Shown here: positions 47,268-54,024 of the stretch, piece after piece
How positions within the stretch are numbered: the first letter of the stretch is position 1
Layout of the letters: each line of letters begins with the position of its first letter
Source of the DNA: Silvanigrella paludirubra
Lineage (GTDB): Bacteria > Bdellovibrionota_B > Oligoflexia > Silvanigrellales > Silvanigrellaceae
DNA length: 64,000 bases
Direction of reading: 5' to 3'
Assembly (NCBI RefSeq): GCF_009208775.1
Contig: NZ_WFLM01000003.1
Span: 473,374-537,373 of the forward strand
Translations under genes and position numbers: made by a program
Notes under the pieces: generated by a model
Told to the model about the DNA's origin: nothing
Database searches by the model: none
Seen by the model: the letters and a program-made list of their open reading frames with translations, nothing else

Positions 47268-48764
47268 ATTAAAGTAGCAATCATTGGTTCTGGTGTAGGC
47301 GGTTTGTCAATAGCTTCACTTCTTTCTAAAGAAGGTTTTAAAATAGATGTTTTTGAATCTGCTGAAACATATGGTGGAAAAATGTTTCGTTACACAAATG
47401 AAGATGGTATCTCTTGGGATACAGGCCCTACTTTAATATCATTGCCCAATGAAATTTATCAAATTTTTAAAATTTTAAAAAAAAATCCACCTGAATTAAT
47501 TCCATTGCTTACAGGTTGTAGATTACTTTTTAGTGATCAAACAGATTGGTCGTTACCAATTGGTTTAAATCAACTTGTTTCTTTTTACCAAAAAATAGAT
47601 CAAAATATTTCAAGACAATTTGAAGAAGTTATGAAAATTTCATCTTCTATTTATGAATTTGCTGAAGATCATATATTTCATGTTGACCCTCCATCTTATT
47701 TTCAGCTTGGGTTAAAATCATTGTCATCTGGATTATTTTTAAAGTACCCTAAAATTACATTAACCCCCTATTCTAAGGTAGTTGATTCTTTAATAACAAA
47801 TTCAAATTTAAGAGAATTTTTTTATCACTTTGCAAGTTACGTTGGCATGAATCCTGATGAAGCTCAAGGCGGGATACTAAGTGTAGCTCATGTCGAGTTA
47901 AATTCTGAAATCGTTTTTCCAAAAGGTGGAGTGTATAATATAGCAGAGCATTTATATAAAGCTGCTTTAGATTATAATGCGAAATTTCATTTTAATTCAA
48001 AAGTAATTTCTGTTAAATTAAATGAAAACTTTAAACATGGAAGCAACCTTAAATTAACTTTTGAAAAAGAACATAAAATTAATGAATGTATTTATGACAT
48101 TATTATATCTAATAGTGATCCTTATGTAGCATCCAAGACATGGTTAGAAATACCTTCAATTAAAAAAATATTTAATTCAAAACTTGAAAAAAAACAATTT
48201 AGACCTTCTGAAAGTCAATTTGTGATTTTATTTGATTTGGAAGATGAAATAGATCTTGATCATCATATAAAAATTTTTCCTGAAAGTTGGAGAAAGAGTT
48301 TTATTGAAGTATGTGAAAAAAATCAAATTCCAAATGACCCTTGTGTTTATTTAGTTTGGCCACATGCAACAGATAAAAGTGTTTCTTCTCGTGTTTTATT
48401 TATATCTGCTATGGCTCCAAATACATTAGCGGAAGTTAAGTGGGATGATAATTTTATAAATAAATATTCAGAGAAAATTTTAAATATTTGTAGAACTAGA
48501 TTAAGCATGAAATTAAAAGGAAAAATATTTAAGGTTATAACTCCAAACGAGTTAGAAGTTAGAGCTAACAGTCTCAATGGAGGAATATATAGTGCTACTT
48601 GTTCATCCTTTCAGCCTATGAATTTTCATTTTTCAGGATTAACCGATACTCAGAATTTATATTTTGTGGGTGCTGGTGTTCATCCTGGCGCTGGTGTTAC
48701 CATGGTAATGAAATCTGCTAGAAGAATTGCAGACCATATCTTAAAAAAATTTGCCAATAGGTAA
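47268..48764 (+). CDS. Carotenoid desaturase (CrtD/CrtI-like) with apparent ATT start codon
   Basis: 498 residues if started at ATT 47268, seven bases after AGGGG. This start is needed to include the FAD motif VAIIGSGVGGLSIASLL. The first conventional codon, TTG 47304, lies inside that motif, and an in-frame TAA precedes it at 47262. Further motifs are FESAETYGGKMFRY, SWDTGPTLISLP, and the C-terminal VGAGVHPGAGVTMVMKSARRIA typical of CrtI/CrtD enzymes. Beside a CrtC-type hydratase, a CrtD-like 3,4-desaturase role on 1-hydroxy carotenoids is the best guess. A CrtI-like early step is the alternative. Confidence 0.85.
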   Translation: MKVAIIGSGVGGLSIASLLSKEGFKIDVFESAETYGGKMFRYTNEDGISWDTGPTLISLPNEIYQIFKILKKNPPELIPLLTGCRLLFSDQTDWSLPIGLNQLVSFYQKIDQNISRQFEEVMKISSSIYEFAEDHIFHVDPPSYFQLGLKSLSSGLFLKYPKITLTPYSKVVDSLITNSNLREFFYHFASYVGMNPDEAQGGILSVAHVELNSEIVFPKGGVYNIAEHLYKAALDYNAKFHFNSKVISVKLNENFKHGSNLKLTFEKEHKINECIYDIIISNSDPYVASKTWLEIPSIKKIFNSKLEKKQFRPSESQFVILFDLEDEIDLDHHIKIFPESWRKSFIEVCEKNQIPNDPCVYLVWPHATDKSVSSRVLFISAMAPNTLAEVKWDDNFINKYSEKILNICRTRLSMKLKGKIFKVITPNELEVRANSLNGGIYSATCSSFQPMNFHFSGLTDTQNLYFVGAGVHPGAGVTMVMKSARRIADHILKKFANR

Positions 48765-48768
48765 TGCT

Positions 48769-49314
48769 ATGTTAATTGAATATAAATTATTATCTTGTTT
48801 ATTTTTATTATTATTTTTAATAGTAGCATCAATTGATGGTTTATATTTTCATTTATACAAATATAAATTGTACGCTAGAGAAGACTCTAGAAAAGAGCAT
48901 TTATTACATACTTTAAATTCTTTTCTTTTTCCATGGTCTATTTATTTTTTATTTTTGGATGAATTTAAAGGAATCTATTTGTGGTTTGGTATTTTTTTAA
49001 CTCTTATAAGTTTAATTATTGAATATATGGACGTTTTTGAAGAAAATAAAAGTAGAAAAACAATCGGTGGTTTGACAAGTCTTGAATACTCAATGCATTT
49101 CGGTATGTCTGCTTTAAGAGCAATATATACTACCTTAATTCTTGTTTCAAAACCTAAAGAAGATTGGTTTTTAACTAGTTCTAATATCATACAAAATACT
49201 TCAAGTGATTTATATATGAAATATTTTTTATATCCTGTAATTTTAATGGGTTTATTTGTTGCTGGATTGCATTTTGTGTTGATATTTTATAAAAAAGAGA
49301 TTAAAACTATATGA
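48769..49314 (+). CDS. Integral membrane protein of unknown function in the carotenoid operon
   Basis: 181 residues from ATG 48769, four bases after the previous stop; the longer TTG frame from 48751 overlaps that gene. About five hydrophobic segments are visible. The polar loops carry charged and His residues (REDSRKEHLLHTLN, EYSMHFG). There is no match to the short PXE(E/D) lycopene cyclases that I can see, and I do not recognise the family. It overlaps the GGPP synthase start as ATGA, so it is firmly within the pigment operon and may be a new tailoring or membrane-organising factor. Confidence 0.7.
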   Translation: MLIEYKLLSCLFLLLFLIVASIDGLYFHLYKYKLYAREDSRKEHLLHTLNSFLFPWSIYFLFLDEFKGIYLWFGIFLTLISLIIEYMDVFEENKSRKTIGGLTSLEYSMHFGMSALRAIYTTLILVSKPKEDWFLTSSNIIQNTSSDLYMKYFLYPVILMGLFVAGLHFVLIFYKKEIKTI

Positions 49315-50450
49315 GTAATTTAATTAATGATCCTTATGTTAATGATTTAAAATATTTTTCGGATAAATTAAATTATTTTTTAGATTCTGAATTATATGAA
49401 ATTTTATATGAAGACAATAAAGATATTCAAACTATTCTTCAAAAATATTTAATTCAAACAGCACGAAGTTCTTTTTCAACACAGGCTAAAAGAATAAGAC
49501 CAATGCTATGTTATTGGCTTTTTAGAAATTTTTATATGCAAGGAAATTTTACAGAAAAATTATCAAATATAAAACTAAGCGAAAAAAAAATATTCGAAAA
49601 AATGAATAAAGTTGCAATAACAATTGAAATCCTTCACAGCGCAAGTCTTGTGGTTGATGATATTGAAGATGATAGTAAAGAAAGAAGAGGACAAGAATCT
49701 CTTCATGTTAAATATGGAATGCCACAAGCATTAAATACAGCAAATTGGATGTATTTTTTAGCATTAAAATACGTTCCACAAAGTTTAAAATCTATTGTAA
49801 TGGATACCTTATTTGATTGTCATATAGGCCAAGCACTAGATTTAAGTAGTAAAAATACAGAAACTACTTATCATCATTTTTTATTATCTGAAAATGAAAG
49901 ATGGGAATTTTATGAAAGATGTGCCGAATTAAAAACTTCAAAGTTAATATCTCTTGCTTTTGACTGTGCTAAAAAAATATTGAATATAAATAAAAATGAC
50001 ATTATTATTCTTGAAAATGTATTTAGAATATACGGAATTATATACCAAATATTTGATGATATTAAGAATTTTATACCAGAATTAAATCGTGATAAATTAT
50101 ATGAAGATTTAAACTCAGGAATGAGAAGTGCTGTTGTATTATGCTTTTTAGATATTTTAACAGAAGATGAAAAAATTCAAATGAATAATGAACTCATTAA
50201 TAATCGTTTTAAAGAATATTTTTTAAATCATGCAAAAAAATTCAATGCTTTAGAAAAGTGTTTTTATAAGGCTTCATATCTACTTCATTTAAATTCAATA
50301 CAACTAGATTCTGTTCATTTTAATAAAGAATCTAGAGAGTATTTATCTGAAATTATTGAAAAACCATTTGATGAAATAAAAAAGAAAATATTTTCTATGA
50401 TACACCTTAAATATAATAAATCTATAGTAAAAGAAAATTATGCATTATGA
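49311..50450 (+). CDS. crtE: Geranylgeranyl-diphosphate synthase-like polyprenyl synthetase
   Basis: 379 residues, an all-helical isoprenyl diphosphate synthase supplying the C20 precursor for phytoene. The first Asp-rich motif is DDIEDDSKERRG, followed by GMPQALNTANWMYFLAL. This pattern is closer to the eukaryotic type-III GGPP synthases (DDIEDNS...RRG, then INSANYVYF) than to the usual bacterial DDXXXXD enzymes. The second motif is IFDDIKN, where the last Asp is Asn. Coupled by ATGA overlaps to both neighbours. Product chain length is inferred from the carotenoid context. Confidence 0.88.
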   Translation: MSNLINDPYVNDLKYFSDKLNYFLDSELYEILYEDNKDIQTILQKYLIQTARSSFSTQAKRIRPMLCYWLFRNFYMQGNFTEKLSNIKLSEKKIFEKMNKVAITIEILHSASLVVDDIEDDSKERRGQESLHVKYGMPQALNTANWMYFLALKYVPQSLKSIVMDTLFDCHIGQALDLSSKNTETTYHHFLLSENERWEFYERCAELKTSKLISLAFDCAKKILNINKNDIIILENVFRIYGIIYQIFDDIKNFIPELNRDKLYEDLNSGMRSAVVLCFLDILTEDEKIQMNNELINNRFKEYFLNHAKKFNALEKCFYKASYLLHLNSIQLDSVHFNKESREYLSEIIEKPFDEIKKKIFSMIHLKYNKSIVKENYAL

Positions 50451-52486
50451 AAATACTTGAAATTCAAGACGCTGAAATTGCAAAAATTGAAAATCAGGAT
50501 CCTATAATTCTTTCAAAAATTAAAAATAATGTATTTTATGAGTGGTTTTATCTAGAAATTAATAAGGAAGATTTACATGTTATTTTAATTCTTTCATTGA
50601 AAGATTGTTTTGAGATAAAAAATACTAATTCTTCTGAGAATTCCTCAATATATTTTACGTGTTATTACAAAAATAAAATTGTGGGTTATAGTTATTCTTT
50701 TTTTGAGGGAAATGAAGAAAAAGAATTTAAAGAAAAAATATTTAAATGGTTTAATTTAGAAACTCCTTCTTTAGAGCTTTGGTTTCCTGATCATTCTTTA
50801 AAGAAGTATATTCAATTATCTATAGATTACCCAAGAGATGTTTCATGTATTAAAACAAATAAAGATATTGATTTAGGATCAAATAAAAAGCATTTTTGGC
50901 AATTTATTTCATATAAAAATAATGCGAATGGATTTATAAAAATATTTGATTTATCACCTAAATTTGATTTAACAAATATCTGTAAAAGAAAATCTAATTT
51001 TTATGATTTTCCTTTAAGTATAAAACTTTCAAAAAGAAATACAAATTTATATAAATTTGAAAATGCAAATCTATATTTTGATCATAATGCGGGTTTTGAA
51101 TCGCTTTATTCTATTAAAGATAATTGGTATTGGTGGCATGCTAGAAATAAAAATGAATATGAAGTTAATTATTTTTTTCCACATATTGAAAAAATGTTTC
51201 ATATTGGATTTATAAATAATGAATTAACTTCTAAAATACACTCAATATCAAAAAAAGAACTAATATTAAAAAACTCAAATACTTTTTTTGGTCTTTCTTA
51301 TCCTAAAAAAATAAATTCAATCGCATTTAATGAAATCCAATTTAATAAAACGATTGAATCTGCGCCCTTTTATTATAGAGCAAAATCTGTTGATAATATT
51401 TTATCAACTATAGAGGTTTTAAATCCTAAGAAGATTATAAATGATTGGAATCAAAAATTACTTTATTCTAGAAAAATTCATATTCTAAAAAATATTTCAA
51501 GTGAATCAGAAATTAGTTCTTATTTAAACTTTTCTAAAATATGCAAAAAAATAACTTGGAATCATGGAAAATCATTTTATATATCATCATTAGTGTTGCC
51601 TATAGAGCAAAGAAATAGTTCTTATTTTATTTATACTCTATGTAGATTAATAGATGACGCTACTGATGAAAATATTTTATTAAATGAACCTGGTTCAAAA
51701 TTTTCAACTCAACTTTTAAATGTCTTTTGGTCGGATGATATAGAAATATTGGATGATTTTATTCCGTTATTGATAAAAAATATATCATTAAGCTTATATT
51801 CTGTAATTAATTATGATTCTGCCCTAGATTTTATCATGAACTCACGGTTATTAATTAAGAATCTTTCTTTAGAAAAAGTATATTTCGAAGACCTTATTTC
51901 TGGGCAGTTAATGGATGAACATTTTTCACAGCCATTAAATATTTCCGATTTTAATTTATATTGTTATCGTGTAGCAGGCGTAGTAGGCATTATGATGTCT
52001 AAAATATTTAGAACACAAAAAAGCCCTATTGCATTAAATGCAGCAGAAAAGCTGGGTTCTGCAATGCAAATAACTAATATCTTAAGAGATGTAAAAGAAG
52101 ATTACGATAAAAAAAGAATTTATATTCCAATTTCATTATTTCAAAAACATAAAATTGAAAATTCATTAGATTTTTTCTCGAATGAAGTAAATAAACAAAA
52201 TAAAATTGAAATCATAAAAGATCTATCAGATATAGCCATATTATATTATTGTGAGTCTTTAGAAGGTATAAAATATATACCTTCTTTTCGAGCTCGTCTT
52301 TGTGTAAAGCTAATGGTTGCTGTATATGGATCTATTCTTGGGAAAATATTAATTGATAAATCTGTTATTTTTAAGAAAAGAATTGTTATATCTCATTTTA
52401 AAAAAATGATTATATTTTTAAAAGTAGTAATTGGTTTTCATCCTTTAAAAGTAGCAAAACTAATTAGTAAAGAGGAATTACCGTGA
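50447..52486 (+). CDS. Fusion of CrtC-like carotenoid 1,2-hydratase and phytoene synthase (CrtB)
   Basis: 679 residues with two enzymes in one chain. Residues 1 to about 345 resemble CrtC hydratases: FYEWFYLEI, LYFDHNAGFESL, WYWWHARNKNEYEVNYFFP and APFYYRAKSV. Residues from about 360 are a phytoene/squalene synthase: HGKSFYISSLVLP, CRLIDDATDE near 398-407 (first Asp-rich motif), YRVAGVVGIMMSKIF, and QITNILRDVKEDYDKKRIYIP near 540-560 (second motif). All phytoene-synthase active-site motifs look intact. Only one long open frame is present, with no internal ribosome site noted. It joins the first committed step with a late hydration step. Overlaps both neighbours (ATGA, GTGA). Confidence 0.85.
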   Translation: MKILEIQDAEIAKIENQDPIILSKIKNNVFYEWFYLEINKEDLHVILILSLKDCFEIKNTNSSENSSIYFTCYYKNKIVGYSYSFFEGNEEKEFKEKIFKWFNLETPSLELWFPDHSLKKYIQLSIDYPRDVSCIKTNKDIDLGSNKKHFWQFISYKNNANGFIKIFDLSPKFDLTNICKRKSNFYDFPLSIKLSKRNTNLYKFENANLYFDHNAGFESLYSIKDNWYWWHARNKNEYEVNYFFPHIEKMFHIGFINNELTSKIHSISKKELILKNSNTFFGLSYPKKINSIAFNEIQFNKTIESAPFYYRAKSVDNILSTIEVLNPKKIINDWNQKLLYSRKIHILKNISSESEISSYLNFSKICKKITWNHGKSFYISSLVLPIEQRNSSYFIYTLCRLIDDATDENILLNEPGSKFSTQLLNVFWSDDIEILDDFIPLLIKNISLSLYSVINYDSALDFIMNSRLLIKNLSLEKVYFEDLISGQLMDEHFSQPLNISDFNLYCYRVAGVVGIMMSKIFRTQKSPIALNAAEKLGSAMQITNILRDVKEDYDKKRIYIPISLFQKHKIENSLDFFSNEVNKQNKIEIIKDLSDIAILYYCESLEGIKYIPSFRARLCVKLMVAVYGSILGKILIDKSVIFKKRIVISHFKKMIIFLKVVIGFHPLKVAKLISKEELP

Positions 52487-54024
52487 AAAAATATGATGCT
52501 ATCGTTGTTGGTGCTGGTTTTGGTGGTTTATCTAGTGCGTTAACTTTACAAAGCATGGGACTTTCTGTTGCTCTTATAGAAGCTCTAGACAAAGTTGGTG
52601 GAAGAGCTTATGTAGAAAATAAAAATGGATATCTTTTTGATAGGGGGCCTTCAATAATAACAGCCCCTTTTTTAATAGATGATATTTTTCAAATGTCCGG
52701 AGTGAACAGAGAAGATTATTGTAAGTTTGTTCCCGTGGATCCTTATTATAATGTTGTTTTTCACGACGGAACAAATATAGCGCACTATAATTCTCAAGAT
52801 AAGTTTTTAAATGAAATAAATAAAATTTCTCCAGATGAAGTTGAAGGTGTGAAAGCTTTTTTTGCACATGCTGAAAAAATATTCCAAAAAGGTTTTGTTG
52901 AATTAGGTGATAAAAATTTTTCAAATCCTTATTCTATGTTGGGTGTTGCGCCACAGCTTTTAAAATTGAATGCTGTTAGACCAGTATATTCTATGGTTTC
53001 AAAATTTGTTAAAAATGAAAAAGTAAGACAATTTTTAAGTTTTCATCCTTTATTAATTGGTGGAAATCCTTTTAGAGCTTCTGCAGTTTATAGTCTAATT
53101 AATAGATTAGAAAGAGCCTATGGTGTCTTTCATCCTATAGGAGGAATGAATAAACTTGCAGAAGCTTTTGATAAAAGATTTAGAGAATTAGGTGGTGTTA
53201 CCTTTTTATCCTCTCCTGTGGAATCTGTTTCAAAAAATCTTTCTGGAGATTTTGTTGTAGAAACTTCAAATCAAACTTTAGTTTCTAATAAATTACTCGT
53301 AAATGCAGATATGCATCGTTTTGTGAAAACAGTCTTAAAAGGGAATGCATATCCTAAAAAATTATCACGTAAATTATCTAGAGCTGATTTAAGTATGTCT
53401 GCATTTTTGATGTACTTTGGTACAAATAAACAATGGCCTGAAATGTGCCAGCATACAATTGCTTTAGGGCCGCGTTACAAAGAATTATTAGAAGATATCT
53501 TTATTAAAAAAATAGAGTTTGAAGATTTTAGTGTTTATATCCATATTCCTACTCGCTCAGATCCGAGTTTGGCTCCCAAGGGTGGCGAAGTCATTTATGC
53601 CCTTGTTCCAGTTGCTAATTTAGCAAGTCAAACAAATTGGGATTCCTATAAAAATGTGATTGCTGATAAAGTAAGAACTTTTTTAGAAGATAAATTTTTA
53701 CCAGGTTTAAAATCTTCGATAGTAGAAGAAAGTATTTTTACTCCAGTTGATTTTGATACAACCTTAAGAAGCCACTTAGGTAACGCATTTGGTTTAGAAC
53801 CATGGATTTTACAAAGTGCGGGATTTCGTCCGTCTAATTCTTCACCTGAAATCGATGGTCTTTATTTTGTGGGTGCAAATACACAACCTGGTGCGGGATT
53901 GCCTGGCGTTATATTAAGCTCTCGTATTACTTGTCGTTTAGTTGCAAAAGATATTGGGTCTGAAAAAATGCCGGCACTTTTAGCAAATTTACCTTCAACA
54001 TTTTCCTATATCAATCTTTATTAA
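52483..54024 (+). CDS. crtI: Phytoene desaturase
   Basis: 513 residues, GTG start overlapping the previous TGA. The FAD motif is DAIVVGAGFGGLSSAL (about 5-20), followed by VGGRAYVENKNGYLFDRGPSIITAP. HPIGGMNKLAEAF and the C-terminal FVGANTQPGAGLPGVILSSR are the CrtI signature. It carries out successive desaturations of phytoene at the membrane. It follows the CrtC-CrtB fusion, so substrate could be passed on directly. Noticeably less AT-biased than its neighbours. Confidence 0.93.
   Translation: MKKYDAIVVGAGFGGLSSALTLQSMGLSVALIEALDKVGGRAYVENKNGYLFDRGPSIITAPFLIDDIFQMSGVNREDYCKFVPVDPYYNVVFHDGTNIAHYNSQDKFLNEINKISPDEVEGVKAFFAHAEKIFQKGFVELGDKNFSNPYSMLGVAPQLLKLNAVRPVYSMVSKFVKNEKVRQFLSFHPLLIGGNPFRASAVYSLINRLERAYGVFHPIGGMNKLAEAFDKRFRELGGVTFLSSPVESVSKNLSGDFVVETSNQTLVSNKLLVNADMHRFVKTVLKGNAYPKKLSRKLSRADLSMSAFLMYFGTNKQWPEMCQHTIALGPRYKELLEDIFIKKIEFEDFSVYIHIPTRSDPSLAPKGGEVIYALVPVANLASQTNWDSYKNVIADKVRTFLEDKFLPGLKSSIVEESIFTPVDFDTTLRSHLGNAFGLEPWILQSAGFRPSNSSPEIDGLYFVGANTQPGAGLPGVILSSRITCRLVAKDIGSEKMPALLANLPSTFSYINLY

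Follow-up and report, generated by a model that had tools for sequence, protein, structure and literature searches.

The open reading frame at positions 50447-52486 (+ strand) of the window, that is, of the whole 64,000-nucleotide stretch of Silvanigrella paludirubra DNA that was analysed, appears to unite in one polypeptide two enzymes that serve a single acyclic carotenoid pathway, a CrtC-type hydratase followed by a phytoene synthase; we give this reading a probability of roughly 0.77. The frame runs uninterrupted through 679 codons from an ATG to a TGA, which bears out the first-pass annotation, where a hydratase-like domain and a synthase had been described as joined in frame in one chain. 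It belongs to an operon of five genes, all of them on one strand and densely packed, and overlaps both neighbours by 4 bases.

47268..48764, + strand: desaturase of the CrtI/CrtD family, opening the operon (scores with the TIGR02734 and CrtD models stay under the cut-offs; probable ATT start)
48751..49314, + strand: hydrophobic, probable membrane protein of ~180 aa (conserved in this operon across the 6 genomes compared)
49311..50450, + strand: prenyl diphosphate synthase (best PDB relatives; 4-base overlap with the fusion gene)
50447..52486, + strand: fusion gene, putative CrtC-type hydratase domain and phytoene synthase, 679 aa (continuous ORF; orthologues in 7 near-complete genomes of the genus)
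52483..54024, + strand: CrtI phytoene desaturase (TIGR02734, 493 bits against a cut-off of 238; 4-base overlap with the fusion gene)

Catalytic signature and predicted fold of the N half

The N half was compared with eight CrtC sequences from plasmid-borne carotenoid gene clusters. The elements located in it are the following.

50447..51478, + strand: N half, aa 1-344, putative CrtC/AttH-type two-barrel hydratase domain (catalytic signature; fold search; profile comparison with the 8 CrtC)
50537..50551, + strand: YEWFY, aa 31-35, matching YAWWY of Thiodictyon CrtC (sequence comparison)
50891..50899, + strand: H149-x-W151, equivalent to the essential H239-x-W241 of Rubrivivax CrtC (signature comparison; PMC4717167)
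51074..51133, + strand: Y210-x-D212-x-N-x-G-x3-L-x6-W227-x-W229, equivalent with the same spacing to Y266, D268 (the proton donor), W283 and W285 of Rubrivivax CrtC (PMC4717167, PMC12402844)
51356..51379, + strand: ESAPFYYR, aa 304-311, counterpart of (E/L)DAPFYSR, which lies close to the CrtC C end (comparison with CrtC)

Alanine mutants of Rubrivivax CrtC at H239, W241, Y266 and D268 are inactive (PMC4717167), and substitutions of the cation-stabilising W283 and W285, located at D+15 and D+17, abolish or drastically cut activity (PMC12402844). The corresponding residues H149, W151, Y210, D212, W227 and W229 are invariant in the seven full-length fusions, and equivalents of the first four are also found in a partial copy from a second genus of the family (genome G008). 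The spacing from D212 to W227 and W229 is D+15 and D+17, exactly as from D268 to W283 and W285. H-x-W and then Y-x-D-x-N-x-G-x3-L-x6-W-x-W come in the same order in the full N halves, in the partial G008 copy and in the eight CrtC, and the PFYxR element is common to the full-length N halves and CrtC. The signature Y.D.N.G...L......W.W, which was chosen after seeing the alignment, is expected 9e-8 times per chain of this composition. The fusions differ from CrtC by an insertion of ~35-45 aa between HxW and YxD, the tryptophan of the former lying 58-71 residues before the tyrosine of the latter, against 24-25 in CrtC. From the sequence comparison, W33 of YEWFY is possibly the counterpart of RgCrtC W110.

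The AlphaFold2 model of the N domain has a mean pLDDT of 57 and a pTM of 0.63 and is poor past residue 220, so that the first barrel is better tested than the second. Foldseek returned as its first 17 matches Fsa2, Phm7, CghA and related double-barrel pericyclases exclusively (E 8e-5), with AttH NE1406 ranking after them. VIA-align gave Z scores of 9.6 for 7dmo, 8.8 for AttH, 7.7 for 25-phosphosteroid lyase and 7.2 for kievitone hydratase, and the first unrelated row scored 5.3; the high-scoring structure matches are confined to the CrtC/AttH superfamily. AttH has been the modelling template for CrtC (PMC4717167), and the superfamily matched by the N-domain model is taken, as far as a predicted structure allows, as the one containing CrtC. 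A model of the full-length fusion was useless for this fold search, its match list being filled by the synthase domain.

When the N halves were aligned with the eight CrtC by hhalign, the score was 26.8 (P 0.009), a value attained by a single column shuffle out of 600; the same test gave 18-24 for CrtC against AttH and 19-23 for the N half against AttH. The hhalign probability of the match to CrtC is low (4.5%) because both profiles are shallow, and the case for CrtC therefore rests on the combined evidence.

The domain search of both halves that had been proposed at the outset succeeded for the C half (PF00494) and failed for the N half alone, which has no match in Pfam, NCBIfam or PDB sequences. 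These empty searches were at first taken to speak against CrtC. This was discounted when a control set of three proteins, with annotations as carotenoid 1,2-hydratase or hydroxyneurosporene dehydrogenase, turned out to lack a significant Pfam match as well: as genuine CrtC can go without one, its lack in the N half is no evidence against CrtC. The N half is likewise too diverged to match NF045922, the NCBIfam CrtC equivalog model, which is centred on Rhodobacter-type CrtC; CrtC-type-annotated proteins of Thiodictyon (280 bits) and Novosphingobium (308 bits) fall short of its cut-off of 400 too. A CrtC-profile search of the genomes and the phylum returned noise only, without recovering the N half, and found no standalone CrtC in these genomes. 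The PF04240 membrane domain of CruF was absent from 8 genomes in a search that detected its controls. PF07143 proteins of relatives, considered as a missing link, were rejected as AttH-like and devoid of the full CrtC signature; those at loci L017 and L019 adjoin ABC-transporter-like membrane proteins.

Essential residues, predicted fold and profile comparison agree with the CrtC-like character claimed for the N half in the first-pass annotation, at family level. That it probably belongs to the CrtC/AttH hydratase superfamily, with CrtC as its nearest member, is well supported by the sequence comparison and the model. Nevertheless, the structure matches span the whole superfamily with Diels-Alderases on top, its sequence divergence from CrtC is large, and dN is higher in the N half than in the C half. 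These observations would suit a protein that belongs to the AttH/CrtC/Diels-Alderase lipocalin superfamily without being a carotenoid hydratase, and that instead acts on another isoprenoid, catalyses another reaction such as isomerisation, or serves the synthase as a carotenoid- or membrane-binding carrier. We regard such a function as unlikely, since the N half keeps all the essential CrtC residues together with N-x-G-x3-L, while the full signature is missing from AttH-type proteins of the same phylum, and since a CrtD-like desaturase, of the kind that usually accompanies CrtC, is encoded in the operon.

The synthase half and its operon

The C half is a phytoene/squalene synthase. PF00494 is complete in the C-terminal 335 aa (157.6 bits, E 6.3e-46, profile positions 3-260 of 263), and both Asp-rich motifs are present, so that the claim of a complete synthase domain holds.

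51560..52393, + strand: squalene/phytoene synthase domain, aa 372-649 (PF00494 E 6.3e-46; Foldseek CrtM E 1.7e-10)
51653..51667, + strand: first Asp-rich motif, D403-DAT-D407 (DDATD; sequence, invariant in the fusion alignment)
52088..52102, + strand: second Asp-rich motif, D548-VKE-D552 (DVKED; sequence, both Asp invariant in the fusion alignment)

The CrtB equivalog models score at best 116 bits against the C half, with a cut-off of 550, and the HpnD model 137 bits, with a cut-off of 279. As no equivalog cut-off is passed, the assignment to phytoene synthase (CrtB) rests on the operon, whose gene content (GGPP-synthase-like, CrtI, CrtD-like) makes it look like the acyclic C40 carotenoid type. 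A C40 product would fit the content of the operon, namely the adjacent GGPP-synthase-like gene and CrtI. The best PDB relatives of the prenyl synthase (49311-50450) are GGPP synthases of eukaryote type (yeast, human) and terpene synthases, not bacterial CrtE.

The scores could also be read as those of a C30 pathway, in which the C domain would be a dehydrosqualene synthase (CrtM-like) and the hydratase would act on C30 carotenoids: CrtM provides the best PDB sequence matches of the C domain, and the HpnD model scores above the CrtB models, all below cut-off. This seems quite unlikely, given that the co-transcribed prenyl synthase is nearest to GGPP synthases, that the neighbouring desaturase exceeds the crtI_fam cut-off and that a separate gene of squalene-synthase type is found elsewhere in the genome; the dominance of CrtM in the PDB reflects the few bacterial phytoene synthases solved. 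The squalene-synthase-like gene (L056, 7158-8201) lies outside the carotenoid operon, has TIGR01559 as its best model, below cut-off, and encodes the sole PF00494 protein of the genome besides the fusion. It adjoins a gene for a 482-aa FG-GAP-like protein, a pairing conserved in the genus.

The CrtD-like gene apparently starts with ATT (window positions 47268-47270; also L010, L013, L011 and L012). Five genomes have ATT where G005 and G006 have ATG, preceded by a Shine-Dalgarno-like AGGAGAT or GGGGAT. In the window, G002 and G003 the stretch from the upstream stop to the FAD-binding motif contains no ATG, GTG or TTG, and ORF callers therefore shorten the protein. AUU start codons are rare, and their regulation by IF3 is possible.

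The fused frame within the genus and family

The same fusion, sought in related genomes as had been suggested, turned up in each of the seven near-complete genomes that represent the genus, including those of Spirobacillus cienkowskii and Fluviispira multicolorata. In all of them it is a continuous frame of 679-690 aa that no stop codon interrupts; hence it is neither an assembly artefact nor a chance ORF. Both halves are under purifying selection, with dN/dS well below 1 (G003 against G002: 0.20/1.37 for the N half and 0.07/0.77 for the C half). In G008 the N half is truncated at one contig end and the C half at another, in orientations that fit a single gene, and this second genus probably carries the fusion too, broken by contig ends. 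The ends of crtI and of the synthase are convergent in G008 instead of tandem (L057, 6397-8977), which implies that the operon is rearranged in that genus; contig C5 of the same genome has two more crtI-like genes side by side. No PF00494 protein was detected in five other members of the family (G009-G013), and no relatives of the N half outside the family were found in the phylum search. A scan of a genome collection with a single short pattern gave matches only in Silvanigrellales. Plasmid searches yielded matches to the synthase half alone and nothing resembling the whole fusion.

A relaxed hhalign alignment spans from the YxWxY motif to the C-terminus of CrtC, which places the fusion point at the natural CrtC end, ~28 residues before the synthase domain. 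The junction shows little conservation in the alignment, and in-frame ATG, GTG or TTG codons occur near it in some species, as would be expected if the continuous frame gave rise to separate mature enzymes through proteolysis or internal initiation. However, the frame is intact in all species, and no in-frame start codon occurs at aa 300-382 of the window fusion or at aa 300-420 of that of G003, which makes independent initiation of the synthase unlikely in these species; as a whole, we hold separate mature enzymes to be very unlikely. That the N half is an unrelated domain resembling CrtC by chance, for which the want of a significant profile match in any library could be invoked, deserves next to no credence in view of the ordered signature with identical spacing of its central block, the fold match and the location inside a carotenoid operon.

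Proposed pathway and relation to known systems

On the preferred reading of a hydratase and a phytoene synthase in one chain, the C domain would, judging from its family and operon, convert two GGPP into phytoene, from which the neighbouring CrtI would produce neurosporene or lycopene. D212 of the N domain would protonate the terminal C1-C2 double bond with the assistance of H149, Y210 and the tryptophans; quenching of the cation by water would yield a 1-hydroxy carotenoid, on which the CrtD-like desaturase encoded by the first operon gene probably acts. The fusion may serve to keep the two enzymes on the membrane in equal amounts, and the same may apply to the fungal lycopene cyclase/phytoene synthase. 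There is a slender chance that it also couples the active sites, the hydratase barrel taking its substrate within a CrtI complex or hydrating an early intermediate (phytoene or a GGPP-derived species); such an order of hydroxylation would be new to CrtC pathways and would tie end-group hydration to carbon commitment.

Both enzyme families are already known, and what appears to be new is their fusion, seen here in a family of red-pigmented bacteria. The earlier remark that a CrtC-CrtB fusion has no standard description agrees with our search of open-access papers, where none was found. The N half shares with CrtC (EC 4.2.1.131; Rubrivivax gelatinosus, Thiocapsa, Roseobacter) the elements H-x-W, Y-x-D, W-x-W, N-x-G and PFYxR in order and a CrtD-like desaturase as neighbour, but it is fused to a phytoene synthase. 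Bacterial CrtB and CrtM have the same PF00494 domain and both Asp motifs, but are standalone proteins. The predicted double-barrel fold of the N half is that of AttH, kievitone hydratase, the CghA-Fsa2 Diels-Alderases and 25-phosphosteroid lyase, of which the last three have different substrates.

The closest parallel to the fusion is the fungal lycopene cyclase/phytoene synthase, where the synthase is also C-terminal. The fungal proteins (CrtYB, CarRA, AL-2) likewise unite a late, end-group-modifying enzyme with phytoene synthase in one chain (PMC2889829, PMC3153474), but the partner is a membrane lycopene cyclase instead of a hydratase, the hosts are eukaryotic and the fusion is independent. 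If our reading is right, phytoene synthase has been fused to an end-group enzyme at least twice, the partner being a lycopene cyclase in the fungi and a hydratase in the present case, which would suggest a general advantage in linking the first step to a late one. The N half would be a diverged branch of the CrtC-type hydratases, enzymes that are wanted as cofactor-free catalysts of terpene hydration (PMC12402844). Moreover, the published annotation of the Spirobacillus cienkowskii pathway stops at lycopene (PMC12321486), and the pigments would have to be revised to include 1-hydroxylated and probably 3,4-desaturated carotenoids beyond it.

The ~180-aa hydrophobic protein of the operon (48751-49314), for which a family search returned no coherent known family, has the invariant elements KEHxLH, GGLTxxEYxxHF and DxxEExxSR, and is possibly an unrecognised carotenoid enzyme.
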